Assembly (NCBI GenBank): GCA_021797495.1
Contig: JAJZZO010000009.1
Location: 1-64,000 of the forward strand
Direction of reading: 5' to 3'
DNA from: Microcaldota archaeon
Lineage (GTDB): Archaea > Micrarchaeota > Micrarchaeia > Micrarchaeales > Micrarchaeaceae
Length of the DNA: 64,000 nt
A program made the translations under genes and the position numbers. This document shows positions 3,033 through 28,269 of the stretch, one piece after another. Numbering within the stretch: position 1 is the stretch's first letter; each line of letters begins with the position of its first letter. The notes under the pieces were generated by a model. The model was not told the DNA's origin, did no database searches, and saw only the letters and a program-made list of their open reading frames with translations.

Positions 3033-3048
3033 CGAATGTTCCGATTAA

Positions 3049-3147
3049 AGCCTCGAGAGGGATTTGAACCCTCGGCCTCCTGTTTTCACGTTTTTTACCC
3101 AAAAACCATTACGAGACAGGCGCTCTACCAGACTGAGCTACCGAGGC
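3049..3147 (-). tRNA. tRNA-Thr(CGU) with anticodon-loop intron
   Basis: On the minus strand the acceptor stem GCCTCGG pairs with TCGAGGC, followed by discriminator U (typical of archaeal tRNA-Thr). The T-arm is GAGGG-TTCAAAT-CCCTC. The anticodon stem CCTGT/ACAGG encloses CTCGTAA once a 25-nt insert is removed, giving anticodon CGU. The insert occupies the canonical position 37/38. CCA is not encoded. AT-rich sequence at 3160-3195 probably holds the promoter. The 3' 17 bases of the gene are the same as those of tRNA-Thr(GGU) at 16477. Confidence 0.93.
3085..3109 (-). other. Intron of tRNA-Thr(CGU)
   Basis: The 25-nt insertion lies between position 37 (A) and 38 (A) of the anticodon loop. It can fold on itself through GTTTTT/AAAAAC. 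The boundary is placed at the canonical archaeal intron site. I could not build a perfect bulge-helix-bulge by eye, so the splice points may differ by a base or two. Confidence 0.8.
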
Positions 3148-14748: not shown

Positions 14749-15777
14749 TTAGCGAAGCAGCCCTGTTATCCTTTTAACGTAGTCTTCGGGCATTATACTG
14801 CTCCCGTAATATCCGGCCATCTGCATCGGTCCTATGTCTGATACTCTTGGGATTATTTCCATGTATGCGTGGAAATTCTTTTCATTCCTTATGCTGTACC
14901 CTAGTATGTTGTAGGCGTGGGCTCCGAAGAGCCTGTTGTTTGAAGCAACTATGGCGCTGCACTCCTTTAACATCTCTAACCATTCTTTTTCATCCAAATC
15001 GCTGAGCTTGCTTACATGCCTTTTCGGCATGATTACGGATTCGCCAGTGAAGAGTTGTGCGAACGGCGCATAAGCTACTGCATAATCTCCGTTTAAAATG
15101 ACTCTCTCTGTTTCAAGCCCTAGCGCATATTCCATCAGGCATCCATTCCTTTCCTCAAAAAACTTGTTTGCAAGCTCAAGCCTATTCATGGCAATGGCAG
15201 GAATCTCTTTGTATCCAAGCGTCTGCCAATGCGAGTGGGCCAACGTTCCGCTGCTTTTCCTGCCAAAGTTCTTGTTCAAATAGACAAAATCCACACTGCT
15301 TTCGTCATATATCCTACGCTCCGTCTCAGATATGGCTTGTGCAAGCTCTCTCAACTCTTCATCCGAAGAATCTTCAAATTTTTTGCTGTGTTTTGGCGTA
15401 TCTATTATCACAAAACTGAAACCATAATTTGATTCCTTTACTAAGATATCGTTCCTCTCAATTTTTTCAGCGGACCTATAATCAAACAACGGGTATTTGT
15501 TATATATGACTCTTACCCTCCACGGGTCCCCTATGCTGAAGAACGTTTTGTTCAAATCGTCTTTTTCAGGTTCAAATGGGCATTTTTCAGGTCCTGAATC
15601 TGTTATATTGTCCGATTTCTCGAAATAATCTATTGGTCTGTCTTTTCTCGATAAGGCATATATCGCCTTGAATCCGGTCCTGTAATCCGTTCTTATCTCG
15701 CCGCTTTCATGCGGAGAATCTGCATCTTTAGAATCAGGTATTCTCGATTTCTCGGAATCCACGCGCTCCATATACAT
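14749..15777 (-). CDS. galT: Galactose-1-phosphate uridylyltransferase (GalT family)
   Basis: The ATG at 15777 gives 342 residues (a TTG lies one codon earlier). The HIT-fold signature is present: GTLAHSHWQTLGYKEIP, with the H-x-H nucleotidyl-acceptor motif. Upstream are NYGFSFVIIDTPKHSKKFED and WRVRVIYNKYPLF, and in the second half YAPFAQLFTGESVIMPKRHV and NILGYSIRNEKNFHAYMEIIPR. The family exchanges UMP between UDP-glucose and galactose-1-phosphate in the Leloir pathway. The usual zinc-binding CPFC reads CPFEPE here, so that zinc site is probably lost or altered. A TATA-like stretch (15792-15812) sits just upstream, suggesting a leaderless mRNA. Other sugar-nucleotide transferases of the family cannot be excluded. 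Confidence 0.85.
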   Translation of the reverse strand: MYMERVDSEKSRIPDSKDADSPHESGEIRTDYRTGFKAIYALSRKDRPIDYFEKSDNITDSGPEKCPFEPEKDDLNKTFFSIGDPWRVRVIYNKYPLFDYRSAEKIERNDILVKESNYGFSFVIIDTPKHSKKFEDSSDEELRELAQAISETERRIYDESSVDFVYLNKNFGRKSSGTLAHSHWQTLGYKEIPAIAMNRLELANKFFEERNGCLMEYALGLETERVILNGDYAVAYAPFAQLFTGESVIMPKRHVSKLSDLDEKEWLEMLKECSAIVASNNRLFGAHAYNILGYSIRNEKNFHAYMEIIPRVSDIGPMQMAGYYGSSIMPEDYVKRITGLLR

Positions 15778-15826
15778 CAATAATATATGCTGGCATATTT
15801 TAAATATATTATGCCAATGCGTCGGT

Positions 15827-15843
15827 AAAGCCTCGAGAGGGAT
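15827..15843 (+). repeat. tRNA-Thr 3'-end duplicate (att-like, distal copy)
   Basis: AAAGCCTCGAGAGGGAT repeats exactly the 3' end (and flank) of tRNA-Thr(GGU) found at 16475-16491. It has the same orientation and lies on the 3' side of the gene. This is the layout left when an element inserts into a tRNA 3' end, with the original 3' end displaced to the far side. Confidence 0.75.
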
Positions 15844-15896
15844 AAACGTAATAGGTTATGGGCCCTACGATAACCGGCATGCCTTCAAGAATCAAG

Positions 15897-16119
15897 CTAA
15901 AGATATTCCTCAATGTCTCCTTTGCTTAACCCTGCCTGGTTTAATATTCCAATCAAGGTCCCTTGCTTTAAATCCTTGTTATGTATCGAAATAGTGACAT
16001 AACGATTATTGTTATCTCTAAGCCTTACATGGCTTACCCCTTTGCCTTACTGCAACAAAACCAAAGTATCTTGTGAGGATCTTTAGCAGTTCTGTGTCCT
16101 TCAACACAAGCCTTGGCAT
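15897..16119 (-). pseudogene. hicA: hicA toxin gene with one-base frameshift
   Basis: The start at 16119 reads MPRLVLKDTELLKILTRYFGF, then VAVRQRG, and runs into a premature TAG through KPCKA. Shifting one base at GGTAAGCCAT (16029-16038 on the plus strand) restores HVRLRDNNNRYVTISIHNKD and then LKQGTLIGILNQAGLSKGDIEEYL, which ends at 15897. That is a complete HicA (YcfA-type) mRNA interferase fold. GGTAGCCAT would restore the conserved G-S-H active-site histidine, so a single inserted A (or a sequencing error) explains the break. The gene follows hicB by 4 nt in the usual operon. Confidence 0.8.
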
Positions 16120-16123
16120 AAGA

Positions 16124-16402
16124 CTACGCCTTTGCCGTGTCAAAAACAGCTCTTCCATTCTTTTGGGATAGTATTTCAAGGCTGGCCACTAGCGGCTTAG
16201 ATAGAAGATCAATAGCGTCCTTTGCCTTTTTGCCCTTTAAACCAAGATCATCTTTGACCAGACTTTCAACAGTAAGTTCTACGGCCTCTTTAAGGTTCTT
16301 TTTCAGTTCGCTTATGCTTTCTGCCTGGTCGACAATGTGCAGGCTCGGAATTTCCGCTATGTAATGGTTGTCTTCCGTCCAGACTTTGATAAAACCAGCC
16401 AT
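16124..16402 (-). CDS. hicB: HicB-family antitoxin
   Basis: The product has 92 residues. FIKVWTEDNHYIAEIPSLHIVDQAESISELKKNLKEAVEL is the HicB (UPF0150) partial RNase-H-like fold. The C-terminal tail lacks an obvious helix-turn-helix. HicB neutralises HicA by direct binding. Here the partner hicA is frameshifted, so the antitoxin may persist as a relic. The gene lies between two copies of the tRNA-Thr 3' end. A TATA-like TTTATTATAG lies upstream near 16422-16432. Confidence 0.85.
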   Translation of the reverse strand: MAGFIKVWTEDNHYIAEIPSLHIVDQAESISELKKNLKEAVELTVESLVKDDLGLKGKKAKDAIDLLSKPLVASLEILSQKNGRAVFDTAKA

Positions 16403-16474
16403 AATTAATTTATGCAGGTTAAACTATAATAAACCCTACTTTCCAAGCGCAATTTTAAGCCTTTTATTGTTAGA

Positions 16475-16491
16475 AAAGCCTCGAGAGGGAT
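16475..16491 (+). repeat. tRNA-Thr 3'-end direct repeat (proximal copy)
   Basis: AAAGCCTCGAGAGGGAT forms the 3' terminus of tRNA-Thr(GGU) and pairs with the identical copy at 15827-15843, 648 bp away. The two bound the hicBA segment. Confidence 0.75.
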
Positions 16492-16550
16492 TTGAACCCT
16501 CGGCCTTCTGCTTACCATGCAGACGCTCTACCATACTGAGCTACCGAGGC
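16477..16550 (-). tRNA. tRNA-Thr(GGU)
   Basis: The full cloverleaf reads acceptor GCCTCGG/TCGAGGC, T-arm GAGGG-TTCAAAT-CCCTC, and anticodon stem TCTGC/GCAGA enclosing ATGGTAA (anticodon GGU). The discriminator is U and there is no intron. It shares both acceptor halves and the T-arm with tRNA-Thr(CGU) at 3049. The promoter region is shared with rsmA on the other strand. Its 3' end is the probable insertion site of the hicBA island. Confidence 0.95.
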
Positions 16551-16573
16551 ATTTGCCAAAATGCAATATCCTT

Positions 16574-16595
16574 TTTAGTTATAAACTTATAAAAT
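16574..16595. promoter_or_regulatory. Bidirectional TATA region between tRNA-Thr(GGU) and rsmA
   Basis: The AT-rich stretch TAGTTATAAACTTATAAAAT reads as a TATA box in both directions. It lies about 25-40 nt before the tRNA 5' end on the minus strand and about 20-30 nt before the ATG codons at 16600/16609 on the plus strand. Confidence 0.5.
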
Positions 16596-16599
16596 CCCT

Positions 16600-17409
16600 A
16601 TGTTTCAAATGGACAGCAACATCGAGCAGATAAAAGCCCTGAGGGCAAACAGGAAACTTGGGCAAAACTTCATGGTCAACGAAGCGGTTGCAGAATCGGA
16701 AGCGGAATATGCCCTTGGCAGGAATGCGATAGAGCTCGGCCCGGGTTTTGGCATACTCACAAAAAAGCTCTGCAAAAAAGCGGCAAGGGTTCTTGCCGTA
16801 GAGCGCGACGAACGCCTGTACGAGTTACTTGAACAGAACCTAAAATGCAAAAACGCAACAGTGGTAAAGGGCGACTTCTTCAAACAGCCTGACAAGATTT
16901 TTGACGGTTACGATATTATGGTGTCGAACATACCGTACAATCTCTCAAGCAAGACGATATCATGGCTCGCAAAAACCCGTATCGAAGCGCTGTTATGCGT
17001 TCAGAAGGAATTTGCAGAGCACATGCTTGCAAAACAGGGCACCAAAAAGTACTCGAGGCTTAGCGTGATGTCGCACCTAATGTTCGATATCTACCAGATA
17101 ATGCGCGTGCCTAGGAACAATTTTTATCCGGTACCGAAAGTAGATTCAATGATTGTGTACATGCGCCCCAAAAAAGTCGGTATAAGCGCCAAAGTAACCT
17201 ACATAATAAACCTGCTCATGGAGCACAAGAAGAAAAGCCTCAGGAACGCGCTTCTGGATTCGCGCAAAGCGCTTGGTTTGACGCAGGAGAATGCGCTAAG
17301 CATTTCGGAATCGTTAAGCCTAAGCTCGAGCAGGGTCTTCAAGCTTTCTCCTGAGCAGATAGCACAGAGCGCTGAAGAGGTGGCCGCGTCGCTTAGTATT
17401 AAAAGATAG
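16600..17409 (+). CDS. rsmA: 16S rRNA dimethyladenosine transferase (KsgA/RsmA/Dim1)
   Basis: The product has 269 residues from ATG 16600 (the ATG at 16609 fits leaderless transcription equally well). NRKLGQNFMV is the substrate-loop signature and ELGPGFGILT binds S-adenosylmethionine. VSNIPYNLSS is the catalytic N-I-P-Y motif, and FYPVPKVDSMIV is the conserved C-terminal signature. The enzyme dimethylates two adjacent adenines near the 3' end of 16S rRNA during small-subunit maturation. It is nearly universal and of standard length. Confidence 0.96.
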   Translation: MFQMDSNIEQIKALRANRKLGQNFMVNEAVAESEAEYALGRNAIELGPGFGILTKKLCKKAARVLAVERDERLYELLEQNLKCKNATVVKGDFFKQPDKIFDGYDIMVSNIPYNLSSKTISWLAKTRIEALLCVQKEFAEHMLAKQGTKKYSRLSVMSHLMFDIYQIMRVPRNNFYPVPKVDSMIVYMRPKKVGISAKVTYIINLLMEHKKKSLRNALLDSRKALGLTQENALSISESLSLSSSRVFKLSPEQIAQSAEEVAASLSIKR

Positions 17410-17412
17410 CAT

Positions 17413-17428
17413 GATATATTTAAATAAT
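17413..17428 (+). promoter_or_regulatory. TATA box for giant surface protein
   Basis: GATATATTTAAATAAT lies about 30-45 nt before the candidate starts at 17452-17461, which gives a very short leader. Confidence 0.5.
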
Positions 17429-17457
17429 TTAAAACAGGTATAATAATAAAAGTGCAT

Positions 17458-20400
17458 ATGATGAAACTGCTGGCCAAAGCTCCCTTCCCAATACTTTACC
17501 TGTTAGTGCAGTTGCTAGTATTTTCGTTCATCGCTCATTTTTCTTTCGCACAATCACTGCCTGCCGCGGCTACTAACTCTAATGTTATAAGCCCAGCCAT
17601 AATGACTGCCACTTTCAGCTGCCCGAACGGCCAAAGCGCCCAAAATACTGTAACATATTCAAGCGGTTCAACAACAACCCTCTCTAGCGATGTTTGCGCC
17701 TATAACGTGATAGTAAATAATAATGCGGTGCTGGAGACCAATGGTTACACGATATATGCGCTTGAATCCTTTACAAACAATGGTATTGTCGAAAACAGGA
17801 ACGGTGGCGCTGGCGGTGGCAGCTATTCGGATGCAGGAGGCAACGGCGATGGCGGCACCGGCCCTGATACTAGCGGTTTGACTGGAAGCTTATCTGGTGG
17901 TTCGGGAGGTTCCTCGAACTATCAGAGCGGTTTATGTATCCTACCAGGCGATTGCGCTGGGTGGGGTTCCGGCGGCGCAGGAGGCGGAGGAGCAAATGCT
18001 AACGGTGGTCAGCGCCAAAGCGATCCAAGCGGTGGATCTTCTGGCGGTGATTACGGCGGAGGTGGTGGCGGCGGTGGCGCCTTTGGTGGAGGTGGAAATA
18101 ACGGGGCTAACGGTGGTGGCTACATAGAAATATATGCAAACAGGTTTATCAACAACGGCCTTATATCGGTTGCCGGCCATAACGCTAGTGGTTCTGCCGC
18201 CTGGGCAGGCGGCGGAGGCGGCGGTGGGTACGTATATATACTGATAACTACTGAGAATCCTACATATGCTGTTCTTGGCAGTATAGATGCTAACGGAGGA
18301 AATGCCGCTACTGTCGCATCCAGCACATATTGTGGTGGCGGCGGCGGAGGCGGCGGCGGTGTTGTGAAAATAAAGACAGAACCTGGAATACTATCCCCAA
18401 ATTCTTATACTAGTGCTTATGGTAGCGTTTCTGTAGTTGGAGGCTCTGCCAGTTCAGATTCTGCAGGTTGTGAAAACGGTTCACCAGGTGGCAACGGTAT
18501 AATAGACATAACAAACGCCCCTCCAGTGCCTCCTCCGGCAGGCTGTTCCGGCCCTGCAGACAGTTATCACGAGAAATACGGTTATTGCGTTTTCGTAAAC
18601 TCAGCCTCAATATCGACCCCATATCCTGATGCAATAGGCGGCACCCTTGAATCTGTCCAATCATATACCTCAAGCTCTCCGACAACCGCAAACGAGCTTA
18701 GCTATGAGCAGCAGAATGCGCAATGGCTTATAACGTGCCCGTTGGTTCCAAATGCTTTAGCTACTGCTAATTATTTCAGCACTGCAACTCCTCAATTCAT
18801 CTCAGGAGACAGGTGCCTTGCAAGCACTGCGCCTCTTTCGACTAAAATAGTTGTAAATACAACAGTATCGTGGGCATACAATTCAATAGCAAATTCCACC
18901 ACCAATATAAATATAGAAAATCCCGGACGTCTTTCGGTATCAAATCTTGGTTACGCTGGAGAAACGCAATTGATGAATTCTTCCTATGCAGTATCAAATC
19001 TTTACAATACCGAATCATACATCTTTGACAGCCTTCCAACAAGCAATGAATCTGGAGTATGGACGTGGACTTTCGAATTTGTGAACTTCAGCAAGCTTTC
19101 AAGCGGTCAGATAGCTTCGCTATCGCAGAAGCAGAGGGAATTCCCTAAGTCTGGAAGCACTTTCCCATACCTGCAATATTACAACACCAGCACCGATTGC
19201 CTTTATAACTACACCTATACAGAATCTGTGGATTTCAAGAGCATAGGCAATGAGCAGATACCTGTGCCGGTGAACCTGCCAAGCCTATTGCCGTATAGGA
19301 TAAAATTTGCAAACGGCACCGTTTCTGGAACATCAACCGCAAAGCGCGCAGACACGAACTGCGCCCAATGGCTTTTCTGGGACGGCAACCCAAACGCATT
19401 CCCCTCTTCATGTAATAGTAATTTGGGCATTAACTTGGTCTCAAGTTCAGCTGCGTTCTATTATGCGAATGCAATACAGTCCGGAGGCAGCGGTTGTAAT
19501 CTATATATTGTTTCCGGAGGGAATTGCATAGGTTCTAAATCGTTCGTATACACTGCCAATGACGTAGTGAACGGCGTAAATATATATGCCAACGACTATA
19601 TCGTCGCTACTGCAAGTTGGGAGCCTCCATCTATTTTTAATGGCTGTCTTTATCTTAGGGGGTGCCTGTATGATTACAAAGCGTATGTCATACCTGCTTC
19701 CGAACTTCATTTCGAGAATGTCAGAGCCATACCGTACCTGCTTTACAACTTCTCCACACCTGCGACTGTAAGCGACGTGAACGGCAGAACCAGATACCTA
19801 AACGAATCATACGACATGTACAGCCCGCACAACTACCTTAATCCCAACAGTTTGGAACCTTATGGGTTGCATACGGGTTCGGCAGTCTTCGCAACTATAA
19901 TGAACAGTTCCGGCTCATATTTCGTAGAATTCCCTTATTCGGCAGCTTCTGAGACTTCAAATACTGCATTCTCTAATCCTAACCCTAATTTCGTAAGCGC
20001 TTTGAATTCAAGTCAGCAAGCTGCAGAAACAAACAGCAACAATCCTCTTACTGGATTACTAAGCTTGCCTGTCGGGCTGTTTAAGTCGGGTAAGATACTG
20101 ACTCCATCATACGCAATATCAACGCCTAATGACTATCTATACTTGATAAACCATACCACATCTATACATAACTTAGTTTTCGCGGACGTCGAAAGTTACA
20201 TCTATACTATCAGAATGATACCTTTTGGCTACTACAATCTGACAAACATCCAGCCCAACTTTGCAGTAAATTCAATATCTCCGAATTCCATTTATCCAAA
20301 CAATGCGGTTTGGGAGTCTGCATGGGAATCGTACTGGAAGGATGCTTTGGCGGAACAGGGCCAGAATTATTATATTACTAACCTGACTCGCATCTCCCGC

Positions 20401-23400
20401 AGCAACTCCTATGCTTGCCTTTCATGGACGTTTAGTTGCTTAAACGGCAAGAAGGCAGTCTTTGCAGACTTCATACCTACGTACGTAACTTCGGATTACG
20501 CTGATGACATATTCTTAGCAGGTCTGGATGCGGCTTACAATCCGCCGAGGCTGGAACTTGCAGCATATTTCACCAATTACACTCCTTCAAATCCAGCTGC
20601 CAGCCAAGTGACAAGTGTCGTAAGCCCATCGAGCGATGCAGGATTTACGCTGGCACAAGACCTAGCTGCAAGTGCAGGAGGTCAGTTCTTGTACCTTTCC
20701 AACCGCAGTTATCCAAACATACCGATGTTCTCCTCAAATACCCTCACATATTTACGAAACATAAGCCTTTCTTATTCAAATTTCACATATAATCTTAACA
20801 TAACCTCATATCTGGCTCACGGAGGTCCGTTTAACAGCACGGCTGTAGCAAAAGCATATGCGAATGTGGGCAATGTTGTAGACGTATCAACAAACCACCA
20901 TCCAGTATCGATATTTGATTACGGAAATCTGCTGTATGTGGTGGACAATTGGACATTCACAGTCAATGGGTTAATGTCAAGCATGCTGATGCTGCGCGTA
21001 TTCTACCCTAACGGCACTGCAATACCTTTAGACGGGGTAAACTACAATGACCTCATAATTAATGCATCGCAAGCAGGTGTTGTTGACACTTCGGGAACGA
21101 ACATAACCACCACAATCACAAATCCGCCATACGGGTGGCCGCTCTCGGTAAACATATCGATAGGTAACAACAAATACGTTTCATATTGTGTTGCAGACTG
21201 CGAGTACTCACCATCAAGCGCCCCATCTACGGACAAAAATTATAACGGCTATCCGCCAATAGGCCCATTTATGATTCAAGATGGTTTTATAGGCCCGAAT
21301 CTAAACGACACTGCCTTTTACATGGACTACAACGGCACGGCTTATATGATAACCCACACCGAAATCCCAAGTACGCATTCCACCAATGGCAGATTTCAAA
21401 GGACTAGTGAAACAACTTACAAAGGTTTATATACCGAATTTCTGAGGTTCAAGCCTGAGATAATAAACTACACGAAGATAGCGCTTTCATCTTACGTGCC
21501 ATACGACTGCCTTATAAATATAACTGCTTCAGGGCCCTGCACCCAAAACAGTTACATATCCGATATGTATCCTCCGTTCACAGTGACGCCAAGCCCGTCA
21601 AGGTTTGTATTTGGCGAAGGATCCGCTTCGGATTACTACGATGCTCAGGCAGTTTCACAATCCCTGTTCCCTGGCGGCTTCGGCAGCTATAACGGCATTT
21701 ATTCGTCCAACACTCAGAACGCCATAAGTACTTCGAGTAACTCTCCAGGGCTCGGTTCGAGCTATGTCAGTAACGGGATAACTGCTAATGTGGTAAGTGC
21801 GAACAACGAAAATTTCATAAGGATAACTTCAACAATAGGGGGTTACGCGCTCATACCATATAATATTTCATATACGGTGACCAAGGACTGGAACCTGATA
21901 AGCACAGATCCTAATAATAATGCTTGCCCAAACGTCCTCCCTAAAAGCAACACTTTTGTATATAACGGCATATCTGTGCTGCAAGTCAATGCATCGCCGG
22001 CACAGGCAAACGTTTTAGTGGAAGGAGGACCAACATATCTCAAATACTTCAACACAAATAATTTTTATGATGCAAATCTCTCGGACAACAGCTCAATAAT
22101 ACCCCCAAGCACCGCTTACAATATATTCACCAACAGGCTTTTCGGCTCCATAATAATAAACCAAAGCATCAACTCCTCCGGAGCCGGGGCAGCAAAACTC
22201 ATACAATCACAAAAATGTTTTGGAAACTTTTGCGTCCCTACCTCGTCCTATGGGCCCGCAGCGCCGAAAATAATAAACTACACGAGGTTATACAACTACA
22301 GCCTCTACAACGTAATGCAAGCGGTACCAAACGGCAATAACTACTACGGGTATTCTTACGAAAAAGTGGTTCTAGCCAACATAAGCACAACACCGCCTTC
22401 GAACATACCTGTTCCTTCTAACATACCAGTTTATGGGGTATCCAACTCGTTGCTCAGCAACCCAAACGTATTCGTCGGCAATAACCTAATCACGTATTCA
22501 AACAGGTCTGCACCCAGCGTTACCAACATATTTCAGCAATTCACCTATTTCAATTATTACAATCTGCTTGCGCTATCGTTCCCTAACGACAGGCAAATAC
22601 TGGGCTATAACAGGCTTGTTTACATAATGCAGGATGCGTTCAATAACACAATATACGTACCTGTAGATGTAGATATTGCCAATACCACAATGGTGACCGT
22701 AAACGTTAATCCCATAGTTAGCGTAACAAACGCCAACCAAACGCGTCTTAACATAACGGGCAATGCCGGCTACATATCAGGCACATACGCGAAATCCTTC
22801 GCGCCGCTGCCAGAGGGATCCAAGATTTACCTGTACTATGATACCCCACTCAATTATTACAATTCCACCGTTAGCCCACTGGTATCGAGCGAGGCTACGC
22901 AGTATTATACATATGCGGAAAAATGCGCATTCGGTGACAATCCTGGTGTCGTATGCAATTTTGCAAATCCCCTAAGCGAATACACGCAGGGCTTAGTTGG
23001 CTCCACGGAGGCAAACGTTATAACCTATAACTCTCAGTTCAATAGCTCAGGCGTATGCCCGCCACCTCCGAGGCACAGCCTTCTTAACATAACTGTGCCG
23101 ATAGATTGCAGCATAAACAACGATACCGCTTACATACCTGCAAACACTGCTTTGAACGGCATAAGCTCTGCCCCATATCCGCGCTACTGCGAGCCCGAAT
23201 TCCTAAACGGCAGCGGAGTACTCACATCGCAACTTGGCCTCGCTGCGATATTGACAACCAACAGTACCGGAGGATTTTCAACCAATGCTATAACCGCATG
23301 CGGAACCGGAACAAGCCAGGTAATCGCAAAATACTACGGCGGGCCTTACCCCGAACCTAACATATACTCACAGCCGCCGATATCCAATTCCATATCGCTG

Positions 23401-23631
23401 TTAAGCCCAACCCAAAGCGCGGTATCTACCTATGAATACAATTATTCGTTTGCACCTAACCAGACAAGCGGTTCATTTAGCATAGGTAGCTATTACCTTA
23501 GCGTCGGAAACATAAGCATAATAGTAACGATATTTGCAATAGCCATGCTCATAATCTATCAGCTACGCCCCAAGCGCGCCATACCTAAAGGCATTAATAA
23601 AGCCAATAAAGGGAAAAAGCCGTTTAGATAA
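17458..23631 (+). CDS. Giant secreted glycine-rich surface protein with C-terminal membrane anchor
   Basis: The product has about 2057 residues from ATG 17458 (GTG 17452 and ATG 17461 are alternatives). A signal peptide (LLVQLLVFSFIAHFSFA) probably ends before QSLPAA. Residues about 110-325 are glycine-rich, with runs of six to eight Gly encoded by varied GGN codons and beta-type breaks such as YIEIYANRFINNGLISVAG. The next 1,650 or so residues are Tyr/Asn/Ser/Pro-rich and heavily sequon-bearing. Near the C-terminus SVGNISIIVTIFAIAMLIIY is a membrane helix, followed by a basic tail (RPKRAIPKGINKANKGKK). I recognise no catalytic domain. Its size, glycosylation sites and anchor suggest an S-layer-like or adhesion protein. 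The membrane-protein gene at 23670 follows after 38 nt and may be its partner. Confidence 0.8.
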   Translation: MMKLLAKAPFPILYLLVQLLVFSFIAHFSFAQSLPAAATNSNVISPAIMTATFSCPNGQSAQNTVTYSSGSTTTLSSDVCAYNVIVNNNAVLETNGYTIYALESFTNNGIVENRNGGAGGGSYSDAGGNGDGGTGPDTSGLTGSLSGGSGGSSNYQSGLCILPGDCAGWGSGGAGGGGANANGGQRQSDPSGGSSGGDYGGGGGGGGAFGGGGNNGANGGGYIEIYANRFINNGLISVAGHNASGSAAWAGGGGGGGYVYILITTENPTYAVLGSIDANGGNAATVASSTYCGGGGGGGGGVVKIKTEPGILSPNSYTSAYGSVSVVGGSASSDSAGCENGSPGGNGIIDITNAPPVPPPAGCSGPADSYHEKYGYCVFVNSASISTPYPDAIGGTLESVQSYTSSSPTTANELSYEQQNAQWLITCPLVPNALATANYFSTATPQFISGDRCLASTAPLSTKIVVNTTVSWAYNSIANSTTNINIENPGRLSVSNLGYAGETQLMNSSYAVSNLYNTESYIFDSLPTSNESGVWTWTFEFVNFSKLSSGQIASLSQKQREFPKSGSTFPYLQYYNTSTDCLYNYTYTESVDFKSIGNEQIPVPVNLPSLLPYRIKFANGTVSGTSTAKRADTNCAQWLFWDGNPNAFPSSCNSNLGINLVSSSAAFYYANAIQSGGSGCNLYIVSGGNCIGSKSFVYTANDVVNGVNIYANDYIVATASWEPPSIFNGCLYLRGCLYDYKAYVIPASELHFENVRAIPYLLYNFSTPATVSDVNGRTRYLNESYDMYSPHNYLNPNSLEPYGLHTGSAVFATIMNSSGSYFVEFPYSAASETSNTAFSNPNPNFVSALNSSQQAAETNSNNPLTGLLSLPVGLFKSGKILTPSYAISTPNDYLYLINHTTSIHNLVFADVESYIYTIRMIPFGYYNLTNIQPNFAVNSISPNSIYPNNAVWESAWESYWKDALAEQGQNYYITNLTRISRSNSYACLSWTFSCLNGKKAVFADFIPTYVTSDYADDIFLAGLDAAYNPPRLELAAYFTNYTPSNPAASQVTSVVSPSSDAGFTLAQDLAASAGGQFLYLSNRSYPNIPMFSSNTLTYLRNISLSYSNFTYNLNITSYLAHGGPFNSTAVAKAYANVGNVVDVSTNHHPVSIFDYGNLLYVVDNWTFTVNGLMSSMLMLRVFYPNGTAIPLDGVNYNDLIINASQAGVVDTSGTNITTTITNPPYGWPLSVNISIGNNKYVSYCVADCEYSPSSAPSTDKNYNGYPPIGPFMIQDGFIGPNLNDTAFYMDYNGTAYMITHTEIPSTHSTNGRFQRTSETTYKGLYTEFLRFKPEIINYTKIALSSYVPYDCLINITASGPCTQNSYISDMYPPFTVTPSPSRFVFGEGSASDYYDAQAVSQSLFPGGFGSYNGIYSSNTQNAISTSSNSPGLGSSYVSNGITANVVSANNENFIRITSTIGGYALIPYNISYTVTKDWNLISTDPNNNACPNVLPKSNTFVYNGISVLQVNASPAQANVLVEGGPTYLKYFNTNNFYDANLSDNSSIIPPSTAYNIFTNRLFGSIIINQSINSSGAGAAKLIQSQKCFGNFCVPTSSYGPAAPKIINYTRLYNYSLYNVMQAVPNGNNYYGYSYEKVVLANISTTPPSNIPVPSNIPVYGVSNSLLSNPNVFVGNNLITYSNRSAPSVTNIFQQFTYFNYYNLLALSFPNDRQILGYNRLVYIMQDAFNNTIYVPVDVDIANTTMVTVNVNPIVSVTNANQTRLNITGNAGYISGTYAKSFAPLPEGSKIYLYYDTPLNYYNSTVSPLVSSEATQYYTYAEKCAFGDNPGVVCNFANPLSEYTQGLVGSTEANVITYNSQFNSSGVCPPPPRHSLLNITVPIDCSINNDTAYIPANTALNGISSAPYPRYCEPEFLNGSGVLTSQLGLAAILTTNSTGGFSTNAITACGTGTSQVIAKYYGGPYPEPNIYSQPPISNSISLLSPTQSAVSTYEYNYSFAPNQTSGSFSIGSYYLSVGNISIIVTIFAIAMLIIYQLRPKRAIPKGINKANKGKKPFR

Positions 23632-23669
23632 ATATTTATATTAAGCAAGCCCTATATTTATTGAGGAAA

Positions 23670-25142
23670 ATGTTCTGGCTTATACCGATATTGTTAAGCT
23701 TTGACATAATAGAGGCACTGGTGCCTGTAATAATAATACTCGTTCTTATAGCAGCAGCGGCCGGACTTACCCGCGGTATGGACATGTTCGCGCTGTTCGG
23801 CCTGGGTTCACTCATGGGTTTTGCGAATTCGGGATCAGGCAGGGTCGGAAAGGGCTTAAGGGGCACAAGGTACGGTGCTGATGCTGTACGAAGGGGCAGA
23901 GCAGCTTCAAAGGCCAACGGCGGCGTATTAAAGAAAGTGAAAGGTATACGTAAAAACATAAAAGCAAGAAATTCTCTAGAGGCTCGAGCGGCGCGTAAGC
24001 AATCCAGGGACAGGAGACAAGCAGGCAGGGCCAGGCATGCGGCATTCCTGGCAAGAAGGTTCGCTAACCTTCAAAAAAACGGCAAGGGCGATTCATTGAG
24101 GGCCCAGCTCATAAAAAAGGACCTAGCTCACATAAGGGAACAGACAACAAAAAATTACAAGACTAATTTACGGGAGGCGGACATCGCAAAGGCTACCAAT
24201 CAGGTATTAAGCGGGAAGAATATGGCAGGCGCAGCTGCAGGAGGCATCATGCTTTCTACAAGATCGCACCAGCGCATCGAAAAAACAAAGGGAAAAATAG
24301 ATAAAATTTCGCAGGAGAAAGACCAGAAGACTAAAGATTCTAACTCTAAGAAGCTCCAGTTTGCGCAGGCCAACAAAGCTACATTCGCCAATATGGGGTT
24401 TGATGTAAATAAGATATTTTCACATACTTACGACAAACAACAACGCGATGCTGAAGTCAGGAAAATGTTTGAGCAGGGATCAGCAAGAAAAACACGTCTA
24501 GCCTCTGCGAGCGAGAACGGGATAAGGATCGGAAAGGTTCCGACATTCAACTATGTGAAGAACCTGAAATCTGCTTCGGGAAAAGACGTGAACGTCTTGA
24601 CTATCCCAAAATCCGCTTTCGTGCAGAAAGGCGCCACTACAGCAATAGGGGTAGCTATCCTCCAAAAGCATTGGCAAAAGAAAGCTTTGGGCACCGGCAA
24701 GGCAGCCGACAATGCCCTAAAGAATCTCAACAAACTGAATGATTATGTTGCCAAGGGTTATTACGGCACAGGTAGCGCTGCAAATGCATTTGAGAAAAAT
24801 AAAAAAGGCGAGCTCCATTCATCAAGTGCGAAAAAGCTCAAGAATGTGGTAAATTTCGATATACCCGTGCCTTTCTCGCATACTGTCAGCAAACTAATAG
24901 GCAAGAGATTCGAGGAGGAGAAAATAGTCAGGCTTCCAGGCGAAGATTATGATCAATATAGGACCAGGGTAAAGGATATTAAAGAAATTGAAAAGATGGA
25001 ACAGGTAAACAAATCCCACACCATCAGGCATCCGATAGCTGGCGTCCACGGCACAAACGCTTTACAGAAGAAGATAAACGAATTGAATAACTCCGTATAC
25101 AACGAAGTCAAGAAAAACGCACCTCCACGGAAAAAATACTAA
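23670..25142 (+). CDS. Membrane protein with long, very basic cytoplasmic-type tail
   Basis: ATG 23670 (GAGG five bases before; TTG 23661 is an alternative) gives 490 residues. Two hydrophobic segments (FWLIPILLSFDIIEALVPVIIILVLIAAAAG; MFALFGLGSLMGFA) are followed by about 430 residues dense in Lys and Arg, e.g. RRGRAASKANGGVLKKVKG and AARKQSRDRRQAGRARH, with helical stretches (IEKTKGKIDKISQEKDQKTK). No family is recognised. The basic tail could bind nucleic acid or acidic polymers if cytoplasmic, or stack with glycans if outside; topology is not determined. It probably forms an operon with the giant protein upstream. Confidence 0.7.
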   Translation: MFWLIPILLSFDIIEALVPVIIILVLIAAAAGLTRGMDMFALFGLGSLMGFANSGSGRVGKGLRGTRYGADAVRRGRAASKANGGVLKKVKGIRKNIKARNSLEARAARKQSRDRRQAGRARHAAFLARRFANLQKNGKGDSLRAQLIKKDLAHIREQTTKNYKTNLREADIAKATNQVLSGKNMAGAAAGGIMLSTRSHQRIEKTKGKIDKISQEKDQKTKDSNSKKLQFAQANKATFANMGFDVNKIFSHTYDKQQRDAEVRKMFEQGSARKTRLASASENGIRIGKVPTFNYVKNLKSASGKDVNVLTIPKSAFVQKGATTAIGVAILQKHWQKKALGTGKAADNALKNLNKLNDYVAKGYYGTGSAANAFEKNKKGELHSSSAKKLKNVVNFDIPVPFSHTVSKLIGKRFEEEKIVRLPGEDYDQYRTRVKDIKEIEKMEQVNKSHTIRHPIAGVHGTNALQKKINELNNSVYNEVKKNAPPRKKY

Positions 25143-25158
25143 GACGGCATCCGTAATT

Positions 25159-25878
25159 CTATGAATAAACGCCGATTATGCTTTCGGCTATGCTGTCTCC
25201 GGCGGTTGCCTCCGGCATTACGCATTTGAATACACCGCTCCTGCTTAATTTCGGTATGTTTTCTTCTTCGGTTACCCTTGTTATTATCCTGCTGTTTCTT
25301 TCTATGGCCTTGGCGGATATGGCTATGATGCTGTTCCTTATGTCATCTTCGCTGCATGCGACTACATAAGACGCCCTTGTTATCCCAGCCTTGATAAGCG
25401 TCTCCCTTATTGTCGGATTTCCTATAACCGCCATCACTCCAAGTTCGTCGGCTCTCTCGAGTTCGTCAGGATTTTGCACTATGAATACATGTTTTATGCC
25501 TTTCTCCATAAGCCTTGCGGAAATAAGTTCCCCGAGTTTGTTCATATTCGTTATTATTACGTGCTTTTTGAGGCCGCGTATTTTCCTTTCCTCGAATTTT
25601 TCCCTGATTCCGAGGCCTTTTATAAACTCGAAAAACAGTGCCGCGAGCCATACAGCAAGCAGCGTGAATACTATGACATCTATTATGTTTGCGGCTACTA
25701 TAAGGGGGTTCATGGCTGTGGAAATCGGTATCTTATAATACTCTATGTCAAGGGCGAGCAGAGCATTCCATGCTATGGCTACTGCGAGGTTTAGCCCTGC
25801 GGCAGCGCTAAGTACCACTGCAAGTATAAACAGCAATATTGAAGCATATGCTATAATCGCAAGCCTTTCGTCCATCAT
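25159..25878 (-). CDS. Two-TM protein with RCK (TrkA-N) domain, degenerate pore and nucleotide loop
   Basis: The product has 239 residues. Two transmembrane helices (about 8-30 and 58-88) enclose a short loop that lacks the T-x-G-Y-G potassium selectivity filter. An RCK-N domain follows from about residue 100 (HVIITNMNKLGELISARLMEKGIKHVFIVQNP). The dinucleotide-binding GxGxxG reads NMNKLG, so NAD(H) binding is doubtful. It is the last gene of a three-gene minus-strand series, and its start abuts the stop of the preceding gene. Probably a regulatory or channel-like membrane protein; the transported ion is unknown. Confidence 0.75.
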   Translation of the reverse strand: MMDERLAIIAYASILLFILAVVLSAAAGLNLAVAIAWNALLALDIEYYKIPISTAMNPLIVAANIIDVIVFTLLAVWLAALFFEFIKGLGIREKFEERKIRGLKKHVIITNMNKLGELISARLMEKGIKHVFIVQNPDELERADELGVMAVIGNPTIRETLIKAGITRASYVVACSEDDIRNSIIAISAKAIERNSRIITRVTEEENIPKLSRSGVFKCVMPEATAGDSIAESIIGVYS

Positions 25879-26658
25879 TCATACACCGCCGCGAGCCTTT
25901 CGCCTTATTATGTCACCCATGTCGAGCCCGGCAAGAATCTCGGGAACCACGCACAGCCCGGCACCAGCCCTGTGCATTTTTGTAACGCTTGCCTCTTCCC
26001 TTGCCCTAGACACTATATTTATATCTGGATTGAGGTAGTGCGCGGTCACTATGCCAAGCATGTTCTCGAAATCGCTTTCCGTAGAGAACACTATCGCTTT
26101 TGCAGAGCCTATCGAGCACTTTTTCAGTATGTTTTCGCTTGTGAAATTTCCCCTTACTGCTATGTATCCAAGTCCCCTGAGCATCTCAACCTTTTCGGGA
26201 TCCTTATCAACTATGACAAACTTTCTCTTCTCCTTCTTGAGCCTTGCACATATGCTTTCCGCAAGGTCGTTATATCCGCAGACTATTATGCCCTTGCTCA
26301 TCTTGCGCACGCCTATATTGCCGAGCTTTTCGAAAAGGTTTATGACGCTTATGAGCTCCACCACGCCGGCAAGTATAAAACCTATTGCCACTATTTTTAT
26401 TATACCGTCAAACATCAATATCGGGAATGTCGCATAAAATTCATTGTCAAACGTCAGAAGGTGGTAATCGAACGCCGGCGAAAGCGACACGCCGTTTATG
26501 TCAAATAAAGCGGATACCGTGAAATATTCTGCGTCATAGAAGTTTCCCACATAATGGTACACAAACAATACTGTGCCAACGGCAGAAGCTATGACCAACA
26601 GGAGCAGCATGGCTATATAGCTCAAAGGCATATCGACTTTGGAACTTACCTCACTCAT
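25879..26658 (-). CDS. Two-TM protein with RCK (TrkA-N) domain
   Basis: The product has 259 residues. The first membrane helix (about 12-38) and second (about 85-108, DGIIKIVAIGFILAGVVELI) flank a roughly 45-residue outside loop with no K+-filter sequence. The RCK-N domain has GIIVCGYNDLAESICARLKK; GYNDLA is a degenerate GxGxxG. It then continues RKFVIVDKDPEKVEMLRGLGYIAVRGNFTSENIL, the family hallmark. The stop directly precedes the next gene's start and the upstream gene ends 14 nt before it, so the three genes form an operon. Function is uncertain. Confidence 0.75.
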   Translation of the reverse strand: MSEVSSKVDMPLSYIAMLLLLVIASAVGTVLFVYHYVGNFYDAEYFTVSALFDINGVSLSPAFDYHLLTFDNEFYATFPILMFDGIIKIVAIGFILAGVVELISVINLFEKLGNIGVRKMSKGIIVCGYNDLAESICARLKKEKRKFVIVDKDPEKVEMLRGLGYIAVRGNFTSENILKKCSIGSAKAIVFSTESDFENMLGIVTAHYLNPDINIVSRAREEASVTKMHRAGAGLCVVPEILAGLDMGDIIRRKARGGV

Positions 26659-26672
26659 CGTGCTCCACTTAT

Positions 26673-27188
26673 CTATTTCGTTATCTCGGCCACTATCTCG
26701 TCGCTTGCGCTGTTCTGCGGCATTACTATGTAATCCGCGCCAGCCTCTATCATTTTCTCCCTCACGAGCCTGTCATTGGCTCTTGTCGCTATGAAAATGT
26801 TTTTGTTCATGTCTCTTGCGGTCAATACTGCAAAAAGGTTCTTCGCGTCGTTGTCCATGGCTATCGCTATAGCTTTGGCGGTCGCTACTCCCGCGTTTTT
26901 AAGCACGTGCGAAGATGTGGCATCTCCCTCTATGACCGTATAACCTTTCTCAATGCTCTTTTTTGCTACTTCGTGGTCGTATTCGACAATGACGAATTTT
27001 ATTCCGTGCTCCAAGAGGGTTTCTACAATCCTCTGGCCCACTACGCCGTATCCGCAGACTATCGTATGGCCCGATAACATTTCCAATAAAACACCCTGGT
27101 CTCTGCTGAAAAATGGCAATTTAAATTTAAATACTGTTGTATACTTTTCAAGCCGAGTCAAAAGGGGTCTAAGGCAAAGAGCTGTCAA
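26673..27188 (-). CDS. RCK (TrkA-N) NAD-binding protein without full membrane part
   Basis: The product has 171 residues from TTG 27188; an in-frame stop lies a few codons upstream. A linker-like N-terminus (LEKYTTVFKFKLPFFSRDQGVLLEML) leads into an intact RCK-N: HTIVCGYGVVGQRIVETLLEHGIKFVIVEYD, with a canonical GYGVVG loop, then EGDATSSHVLKNAG. It is therefore the one of the three neighbouring RCK proteins expected to bind NAD(H). The linker resembles what follows TM2 in 2TM-RCK channels, so the gene may be a truncated channel. The att-like repeat at 27228 lies just upstream and could mark where the 5' part was lost. Confidence 0.72.
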   Translation of the reverse strand: MTALCLRPLLTRLEKYTTVFKFKLPFFSRDQGVLLEMLSGHTIVCGYGVVGQRIVETLLEHGIKFVIVEYDHEVAKKSIEKGYTVIEGDATSSHVLKNAGVATAKAIAIAMDNDAKNLFAVLTARDMNKNIFIATRANDRLVREKMIEAGADYIVMPQNSASDEIVAEITK

Positions 27189-27227
27189 CAGAACATATGC
27201 CTAGTCAAAACAAGCAGACAATAGAAT

Positions 27228-27242
27228 ATAATTAGCTCCAGC
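27228..27242 (+). repeat. tRNA-Gln 3'-end duplicate (att-like, distal copy)
   Basis: ATAATTAGCTCCAGC repeats exactly the 3' end and flank of tRNA-Gln(CUG) at 28105-28119, in the same orientation and 877 bp away on the 3' side of the tRNA gene. The segment between them holds a single gene. Confidence 0.65.
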
Positions 27243-27301
27243 ATAATACCATTGCATACTGGTATTTATACGGTAGTTTGCACGTATTCTAGTATACAGA
27301 C

Positions 27302-28078
27302 CTATGAAAAATTAAGGTATAACGGAAGATGGTCTGAAACCTCGTCTTGTAACACTCTGAATTCATTCACATTTATGTCGTTAGAAACGAATGCGTAATC
27401 TGCGAATTTACCCTTGCTCAATCTAGGGTACAGGGAACTTCTAGTCGATTGCACATTATTCCTTTTAATCAGGTTTAACATGCCGGAGTCCTCTATCATC
27501 TCTATGCTTTTCGTCTCTGGTGAAAGGTTGAAATCACCTACCAAAACTCTTCTCTCAGATGTTCTTGACAGAAACTCCACAATTTTTTCGGACTGGTACA
27601 ATCTTTCAGGTGTATCTCTTTTGCCTACTTGTTGCCAAAGGCCGTGGATGTTACCTATGCATAGATCTTTATCAACCATTATGTACTGAATGGCTGAAGA
27701 AAGTGTGAAACTTTCTCCTTCGAAATCAACCTTAACCGGTTTCGATGTTAAAACAAATCCATTGTCGTTTATCTGCATTCCCCTTCTGTAAAAGATGGCT
27801 AGACGCTCCCCATCTTCTGTGGTTGTGAGTGGATTACCGAGTATGCTGTCAAAATCAGTCAGTACAGATTTGAGTTTGGAGTATAGGTCTGGCACATCAT
27901 CATATGAACTACCTGAATGCGCCTTTTTCAACTTTTTGAATTGGGGGTTGGCGTCCCCCGCTTCAGATAAAACCTCCTGGAAGCAGAAGACATCGATATC
28001 TGGGGCTTTTTCTTTCAAGAACGGTACGAGTTTGTCGTACACCCTGCCGGCCCATAAGTTCAAGGATAATAGTTTCAT
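27302..28078 (-). CDS. Endonuclease/exonuclease/phosphatase (EEP) family protein
   Basis: The product has 258 residues. It keeps the DNase I-like catalytic set: SLNLWAG (Asn7), FQEVL (Glu35), GNIHGLW, VGDFNL (Asp/Asn pair) and the terminal SDHLPLYL (Asp-His). The fold hydrolyses phosphodiester or phosphomonoester bonds with a divalent metal; members act on DNA, lipids or inositol phosphates, and the substrate is not predictable here. No signal peptide is present, so it is cytoplasmic. The gene lies alone between two copies of the tRNA-Gln 3' end, which suggests acquisition by site-specific integration. Confidence 0.85.
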   Translation of the reverse strand: MKLLSLNLWAGRVYDKLVPFLKEKAPDIDVFCFQEVLSEAGDANPQFKKLKKAHSGSSYDDVPDLYSKLKSVLTDFDSILGNPLTTTEDGERLAIFYRRGMQINDNGFVLTSKPVKVDFEGESFTLSSAIQYIMVDKDLCIGNIHGLWQQVGKRDTPERLYQSEKIVEFLSRTSERRVLVGDFNLSPETKSIEMIEDSGMLNLIKRNNVQSTRSSLYPRLSKGKFADYAFVSNDINVNEFRVLQDEVSDHLPLYLNFS

Positions 28079-28104
28079 AATACCAACATTGAATTCAACA
28101 TAAA

Positions 28105-28119
28105 ATAATTAGCTCCAGC
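28105..28119 (+). repeat. tRNA-Gln 3'-end direct repeat (proximal copy)
   Basis: ATAATTAGCTCCAGC spans the 3' end of tRNA-Gln(CUG) and matches the copy at 27228-27242. Confidence 0.65.
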
Positions 28120-28213
28120 CAGATTCGAACTGGCGTTTACGGCTCCAGAGGCCGCCGTCCTTTTATGGTGGCATATGCATTGAAATATGCCATGACCACT
28201 AGACGATGGAGCT
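28110..28213 (-). tRNA. tRNA-Gln(CUG) with D-loop intron
   Basis: The minus strand gives acceptor AGCTCCA/TGGAGCT with discriminator A. The D stem is GTCT/GGAC, the anticodon stem GCGGC/GCCGT encloses CTCTGGA (anticodon CUG), and the T-arm is GCCAG-TTCGAAT-CTGGC. The stretch GGCGGCCTCTGGAGCCG is typical of archaeal tRNA-Gln. A cloverleaf forms only if about 31-32 nt are removed from the D-loop. The gene's 3' end is duplicated 877 bp away. The promoter is probably the AT-rich sequence at 28225-28250. Confidence 0.9.
28162..28193 (-). other. Intron in the D-loop of tRNA-Gln
   Basis: The insert begins ATGGCATAT, contains the complementary ATATGCCA and ends CCATAA(A). GTGG in the D-loop pairs with CCAT, with a 3-nt bulge TCA on the 5' side and A-rich bulge on the 3' side. 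That is close to a bulge-helix-bulge substrate for the archaeal splicing endonuclease. Exact ends are uncertain by 1-2 nt. Confidence 0.8.
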
Positions 28214-28269
28214 AATCGCATATTATTTTGTCGCATGCATTTTAATACCTTGCCGATAAATTAACCCAT

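Follow-up and report, generated by a model that had tools for sequence, protein, structure and literature searches.

Integrase-less gene cassettes behind tRNA genes of a Microcaldota archaeon and its relatives

Micrarchaeota are archaea with tiny genomes that probably depend on hosts. We have analysed a stretch of 64,000 nt (the window) of contig JAJZZO010000009.1 from the Microcaldota archaeon assembly GCA_021797495.1, which we call this genome and whose named relatives place it in Candidatus Micrarchaeota, and observed in this stretch two small cassettes, each of which consists of one or two passenger genes located between the 3' end of a tRNA gene and a short downstream copy of that same 3' end. 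Same-genus relatives have the corresponding tRNA sites without the passenger genes, and by this comparison both cassettes are site-specific insertions. We consider it probable that they are non-autonomous cassettes, similar to the cis-mobilizable elements (CIMEs) of bacteria, that are moved by integrases encoded elsewhere and that have undergone some decay. More generally, small gene packets without a recombinase of their own seem to use tRNA genes as docking sites.

Two cassettes at tRNA 3' ends

The initial annotation of the window had described 2 arrangements of a tRNA gene, its passenger gene or genes and a 15-17 bp copy of the tRNA 3' end, each under 0.9 kb and without an integrase. This description held: the cassettes are 0.63 and 0.87 kb long, and neither the open reading frames (ORFs) nor Pfam searches of the 2 inserts revealed an integrase. 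The coordinates are collected in Table 1.

Cassette 1, at tRNA-Thr(GGT), is bounded by the 17-bp sequence AAAGCCTCGAGAGGGAT, which is exact at both ends with a spacing of 633 bp. Its passengers are a HicA-family toxin gene and a HicB-like partner, the composition of a HicBA pair. Since HicA is split over 2 reading frames and the C-terminal piece matches PF07927, we regard the toxin gene as frameshifted. PADLOC matched neither HicB nor the HicA pieces. In 5 same-genus genomes the site is empty, with a GalT-like gene located 20-60 bp past the tRNA. The 17-mer is present also at position 3047, where it closes a second tRNA-Thr of the window, and no cassette was seen within the 3 kb available downstream of that gene. 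In same-genus G004 an unknown protein occupies the site behind tRNA-Thr, with no copy detected.

Cassette 2, at an intron-bearing tRNA-Gln(CTG), is bounded by the 15-bp sequence ATAATTAGCTCCAGC, again exact at both ends, and contains as its sole gene one for an endonuclease/exonuclease/phosphatase (EEP) family protein, which PADLOC left unmatched. Modelling predicted an EEP fold for this protein (pLDDT 90), with PDB matches to that fold, the LINE-1 endonuclease being among them. Also, residues N7, E35, H145, D182, N184, D249 and H250 were invariant in an alignment with 13 relatives. Judged by modelled fold and conserved active-site residues, the protein belongs to the EEP superfamily. The EEP gene is absent from all 7 same-genus relatives searched, and in 4 same-genus genomes we could observe the tRNA-Gln site without it. 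In 2 of these 4 (L133, L134) the tRNA end reads GCTGGAGCTAATTATATT, which is identical over 18 bp to the distal copy in the window together with its flank. The same locus is occupied differently elsewhere. G006 has a methyltransferase-like gene behind tRNA-Gln, with no copy detected, and G014 (G014:C1:411558-413014) has, at the tRNA-Gln/TrkA locus corresponding to that of cassette 2, a hemA gene (glutamyl-tRNA reductase-like) between 2 complete tRNA-Gln genes, with the flank duplicated.

Table 1. Features of the 2 cassettes and their surroundings in the window
Feature	Position	Strand	Evidence
Second tRNA-Thr, intron-bearing, identical 17-bp 3' end	3049..3147	-	sequence match
GalT-like gene, directly after tRNA-Thr at relatives' empty site	14749..15780	-	Pfam; synteny
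Cassette 1, distal 17-bp copy of tRNA-Thr 3' end, marking the cassette end	15827..15843	-	exact repeat; five empty same-genus sites
HicA-type toxin gene, frame broken at ~16023-16040	15897..16119	-	C-terminal part PF07927, E 3e-9
HicB/UPF0150-like antitoxin, 92 aa	16124..16402	-	Pfam UPF0150, E 0.005 (weak); HicB of G019 71% identical
Cassette 1, proximal 17-bp repeat (tRNA-Thr 3' end + 2 bp)	16475..16491	-	exact repeat
tRNA-Thr(GGT), target of cassette 1	16477..16550	-	ARAGORN; Rfam RF00005, 69 bits
TrkA-N protein, next after tRNA-Gln at relatives' empty site	26673..27188	-	Pfam; synteny
Cassette 2, distal 15-bp copy of tRNA-Gln 3' end, marking the cassette end	27228..27242	-	exact repeat; empty sites
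EEP family protein, 258 aa	27302..28078	-	PF03372, E 4e-9; alignment; model
Cassette 2, proximal 15-bp repeat (tRNA-Gln 3' end + 5 bp)	28105..28119	-	exact repeat
tRNA-Gln(CTG) with D-arm intron, target of cassette 2	28110..28214	-	RF00005, 32 bits on split match; sequence

Recurrence of the design and its cargo

It had been suggested with the initial annotation that the design might recur, and that a scan of tRNA genes for 3'-end copies would turn up no others if it did not. We scanned the 247 tRNAs of 7 Micrarchaeota genomes (this genome, 3 of the same genus and 3 of the same family), counting copies of at least 15 bp that lay downstream on the same strand and were not part of another tRNA gene; paired or duplicated tRNA genes (in G005, G014, G031 and G010) were excluded. 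Further cases were found. Copies were observed for 8 of the 247 tRNAs, versus 0 in each of 3 controls of equal size, one upstream and two on the opposite strand (Fisher P 1.4e-5). In shuffled sequence, any 12-mer match within 1 kb was expected in just 0.2-0.3% of cases. Two of the 8, at tRNA-Leu of G010 and tRNA-Trp of G014, were included as previously known, and without them the count is 6/245. This genome itself entered the sample because the finding came from it. For these 2 reasons we claim no more than a real excess of copies, of which this genome has many: 4 of its 38 tRNAs have copies of at least 15 bp, with HicBA, EEP, an M23 peptidase and Fic as cargo. No copies of this length were found in same-genus G001 and G005 or in family member G031. 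Flanking copies of 13-14 bp are rated as weak here, as such lengths arise by chance in the controls.

The 2 cassettes of this genome that lie outside the window have the same layout. On contig C1, an M23-peptidase gene lies behind tRNA-Glu(TTC), with an exact 26-bp copy at +621 from which weaker similarity to the tRNA stretches on to the anticodon loop; on C18, the gene behind tRNA-Trp is of the Fic family, and a copy of 17 bp lies at +1330. In same-genus G004, tRNA-Ala(TGC) precedes a gene pair that includes a YoeB/ParE-type toxin and ends in a 19-bp copy at +677, and G010 has a ParE-type pair at tRNA-Lys with a weak 13-bp copy.

The same cargo families recur at many tRNAs of related genomes. 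HicB was located directly behind a tRNA 3' end in 9 of 30 HicB loci examined across the order, the tRNAs being Thr-GGT, Thr-CGT, Lys-TTT, Cys-GCA, Pro-TGG, Leu-CAG, Arg-CCG and 2 more. Five of the 9 loci (Thr-GGT, Thr-CGT, Lys, Cys and Pro) are flanked by a copy of 13-44 bp, and the cassettes that contain HicBA only are of near-equal length, 608-633 bp, at Cys and Thr. EEP genes start 8-70 bp past a same-strand tRNA in 12 distinct loci, which in Micrarchaeota are at Gln, Ser-TGA (4 loci), Gly, Glu-CTC and Met, and which outside Micrarchaeota belong to one Aenigmatarchaeote and 3 uncultured bacteria. One further Micrarchaeota EEP gene is located at tRNA-Val in reversed orientation, bringing the tRNA types to 6 in all. 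In 3 EEP cassettes at 3 tRNA types, the distal copy was observed at +861, +862 and +867. As a background rate, ~11-21 tRNAs per genome have an ORF of at least 80 aa equally close downstream, an estimated ~2% of genes if the genome has ~1000. The tRNAs with a Fic gene behind them are Trp, Ala and Leu, and several of these genes have copies; one Fic pair, which includes the G033 homologue, is 85% identical although its 2 genomes belong to different genera and have RsmA proteins that are 45% identical. Also, G022 has an M23 homologue behind tRNA-Val.

The EEP family (L208-L280) has members in other lineages too, among them Patescibacteria, Legionella and Chlamydiae, and most of these are not near tRNA genes; no EEP relatives were found in IMG/VR viral contigs. 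Two longer integrase-less inserts were seen with copies at noise level: a 3.6-kb insert at tRNA-Val on C22 of G004 (L196), with ParB-like and adenine-methylase-like proteins and a 14-bp copy, and a 2.1-kb insert in G001 (L152, C1:362958) with small membrane-type proteins and a 13-bp copy.

Integrases and arrays at tRNA genes

The search for tyrosine recombinases that had been proposed for this genome recovered 2 genes with PF00589 matches, each immediately behind a tRNA: a 395-aa integrase on C5 at tRNA-Glu, and a 254-aa integrase (INT19) on C19 at tRNA-Ala. Such genes were present in 37 of the 60 genomes searched. Integrases of the INT19 type (~250 aa) immediately follow tRNAs for Ala, Pro, Trp, Leu, Arg and Glu, and their elements have, where the far end was covered, copies of 20-59 bp 1.8-7.4 kb downstream; one element (L331) is only 1.9 kb long, with an integrase and little more. 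Residues R69, K94, H187, R190, H214 and Y223 were invariant in our alignment, and this full R-K-H-R-H-Y set, together with the PF00589 match, identifies the INT19 type as a tyrosine recombinase. No relatives of INT19 were found in IMG/VR viral contigs. The INT19-type element of C19 (C19:3592-7525, at tRNA-Ala(TGC)) encodes, besides the integrase, an Argonaute-associated-type TIR protein and a SPARTA-like short Argonaute of class I.

Contig C5 (C5:74554-74664) and the end of C1 have in common 111 bp that end at the last base of tRNA-Glu. Past this segment, C5 continues into the integrase element and C1 into the M23 cassette, a fork that would fit a population which holds both the integrase-element and the M23-cassette form. 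None of the full-length EEP or Fic genes examined had an integrase in its available flanks, and the sole integrase found near EEP adjoins a partial EEP match in G052.

Integrase-bearing and integrase-less units were observed together in arrays of relatives. At tRNA-Leu(TAG) of G010 the order is integrase unit, 32-bp copy, ATPase unit, 25-bp copy, AbiEi/AbiEii unit and 59-bp copy. At tRNA-Trp of G014, the first 1130 bp of the integrase unit match elements found at tRNA-Pro of G011 and G018 with 90-92% identity, so that a near-identical integrase is found at 2 different tRNAs, and the right end of the G014 integrase unit bears a core of the tRNA-Pro type. This mismatch of core and target points to target switching. 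Behind the integrase unit lies an integrase-less unit of ~1.0 kb, which ends in a core of the tRNA-Trp type and whose right end, ~97 bp, is related to that of the integrase unit (85% identical over 95 bp). The integrase-less unit thus has in common with an integrase element an end that is likely to be cis-acting. Judging by where the junction lies at this one locus, crossover may occur at the tRNA's CCCC end and so leave the tRNA unharmed. Among 85 genomes of the family, the right-end motif of G014 and G018 was strong in 5, including same-genus G004, and it was absent from this genome.

At tRNA-Pro, G102 has 2 diverged elements in tandem, and an insert at tRNA-Thr(TGT) of G010 is eroded. One locus, L345, had been considered as a circle junction and was dropped, as its 2 left ends are 7.5% different.

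Probable mobility, decay and known systems

The account that we consider probable, that of CIME-like cassettes moved by integrases encoded elsewhere, would proceed as follows. A tyrosine recombinase, not encoded by the cassette, would recognise the T-arm/acceptor end of the tRNA and insert the cassette at the tRNA 3' end; recombination at the tRNA-end-like core of the cassette would leave the tRNA intact and a short 3'-end copy at the far side. The cassettes would be partners of small (~2-7 kb) tRNA-targeting elements with INT19-type integrases, with which units of this kind form arrays in relatives, and the helper integrase may come from an array partner or from a separate element, so that INT19-type enzymes may move cassettes in trans or in cis. 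The cargo is either of a self-preserving or defence-like kind (HicBA, RelE-type and AbiE pairs, Fic) or a single enzyme (EEP, M23), and we infer that cassettes persist through toxin-antitoxin addiction or through usefulness of what they encode.

That the cassettes might be satellites mobilised in trans had already been raised by the initial annotation; the arrays of relatives and the shared right end in G014 are in line with it. Our account as a whole draws also on the empty sites, on the recurrence of cargo at different tRNAs, and on the INT19-type integrases behind tRNAs, of which this genome has one besides its larger integrase. Several observations weigh against the account. The ends of the window cassettes beyond the tRNA core resemble no integrase element examined, and none of the relatives examined showed an integrase at tRNA-Thr(GGT) or tRNA-Gln. 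Some cassette-bearing genomes (G021, G022 and G033) have no detected PF00589 gene, and cassette 1 must be at least partly dead, because its HicA is frameshifted. Nor does the account fully cover one cargo that occurs with different cores, each matched to its target, because a fixed core should bind a cassette to a single tRNA. A broader form of this account, which we hold only tentatively, is that of a dispersed system of Micrarchaeota in which tRNA genes are docking sites and a promiscuous INT19-type recombinase works in trans on one-function, integrase-less cassettes, allowing changes of tRNA. With it would go, equally tentatively, short arrays with the newest cassette nearest the tRNA, and an integron-like capture without IntI or attC.

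The alternative of simple decay, in which the cassettes are remnants of integrase-bearing elements after deletion of the integrase, with neither mobilisation in trans nor a system, seems to us rather unlikely, even though decay evidently contributes, because the toxin of cassette 1 is broken. To that extent the earlier suggestion of eroded elements which keep useful genes has support. The eroded tRNA-Thr(TGT) insert of G010 and the 1.9-kb element with little besides its integrase are in line with decay, as are the hosts without a PF00589 match and the integrase elements with defence cargo that are common at tRNAs; moreover, a route through decay and then accretion is documented for bacteria (PMC5704250). 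However, in many independent cases both ends are retained around an interior of one or two tightly packed genes, the EEP cassettes are of equal length (861-867 bp) at 3 tRNA types, as are nearly the HicBA-only cassettes at Cys and Thr, and the full-length EEP and Fic genes are without integrases in their flanks.

We consider it very improbable that the copies are target-site duplications from insertion at tRNA 3' ends by a process that is nuclease-driven or retro-type and needs no integrase. Such a process would agree with copies that always match the target, including where one cargo occurs at several tRNAs, and with the LINE-1 endonuclease among the structural matches of the EEP model, but EEP is missing from the HicBA, Fic, M23 and RelE cassettes, identically laid-out integrase elements have 20-59 bp copies, and the distal copy at tRNA-Glu runs degenerately into the anticodon arm, which is unexpected for a target-site duplication. 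Still less credit goes to homologous recombination of circular DNA bearing a tRNA gene, which would leave 2 tRNA copies. The hemA gene of G014 has that form, as it is enclosed by 2 tRNA-Gln genes at the locus of cassette 2 and the flank there is duplicated, whereas the distal copies in the window are just 15-17 bp and include no sequence from upstream of the T-arm. The least credible of these explanations, which we rejected, is that of chance repeats, or of tRNA fragments without relation to mobility: although copies of 13-14 bp arise in controls, those of at least 15 bp numbered 8 versus 0, and relatives have empty sites.

CIMEs are decayed integrative and conjugative elements (ICEs) or integrative and mobilizable elements (IMEs) without integration and transfer genes, and tandem accretion is described for ICEs and IMEs of Streptococcus (PMC5704250). 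The window cassettes likewise keep both attachment ends (attL and attR) and contain no integration or transfer genes, and arrays that include an integrase element are seen behind a single tRNA in G010, G014 and G102. Relationship to an integrase element is apparent at the right end of the G014 unit, and the window-cassette ends match none examined. In contrast to CIMEs, the Micrarchaeota units are of 0.6-1.5 kb with one or two genes, have the same cargo at many different tRNAs, and were not seen to contain conjugation genes.

A comparison with integron-like capture had been drawn at the outset, and it stands as an analogy only. Integron cassettes, and their integrase-less forms known as clusters of attC sites lacking integron-integrases (CALINs), are similarly small and single-function, often encode toxin-antitoxin pairs and form arrays split by recombination sites (PMC9668308, PMC11389934). 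The Micrarchaeota sites, however, are copies of tRNA 3' ends and not folded attC sites (no attC folding was run), there is no attI, and the recombinases are not IntI: INT19 scored 23 bits and the C5 integrase 44 bits versus a TIGR02249 cut-off of 265. Judged from sequence, then, the cassettes resemble those of integrons in logic yet are not integrons.

Tycheposons target tRNA genes. They and other satellites (named in PMC11389934) are, like the Micrarchaeota units, tRNA-targeted and cargo-bearing, and they depend on helpers, as the Micrarchaeota units probably do, but the latter are much smaller, with no phage packaging or replication genes seen. Among archaea, the cryptic integrated elements of Thaumarchaeota also have short direct repeats; they are defined by their integrases and range from 2.6 to 98 kb, the smallest having 4 genes including the integrase (PMC6563490), whereas the window cassettes are smaller and encode none.

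Our literature search found no paper that combines Micrarchaeota, integrases, mobile genetic elements and tRNA, nor do Micrarchaeota figure in a paper on the genomic islands of acidophilic archaea. Surveys that start from integrases overlook integrase-less units of less than 1.5 kb. If cassettes move in trans, tRNA genes would be the sites at which toxin-antitoxin and defence genes enter and leave these streamlined genomes. The arrays of G010 and G014 open the recombination to direct testing, and the near-identical integrase element at tRNA-Pro and tRNA-Trp is informative about how integrases switch target.

Between the 2 cassettes, directly after RsmA, the window also contains a gene (17452-23631) for a 2059-aa protein that is rich in Gly, Ser and Asn and is predicted to be secreted.

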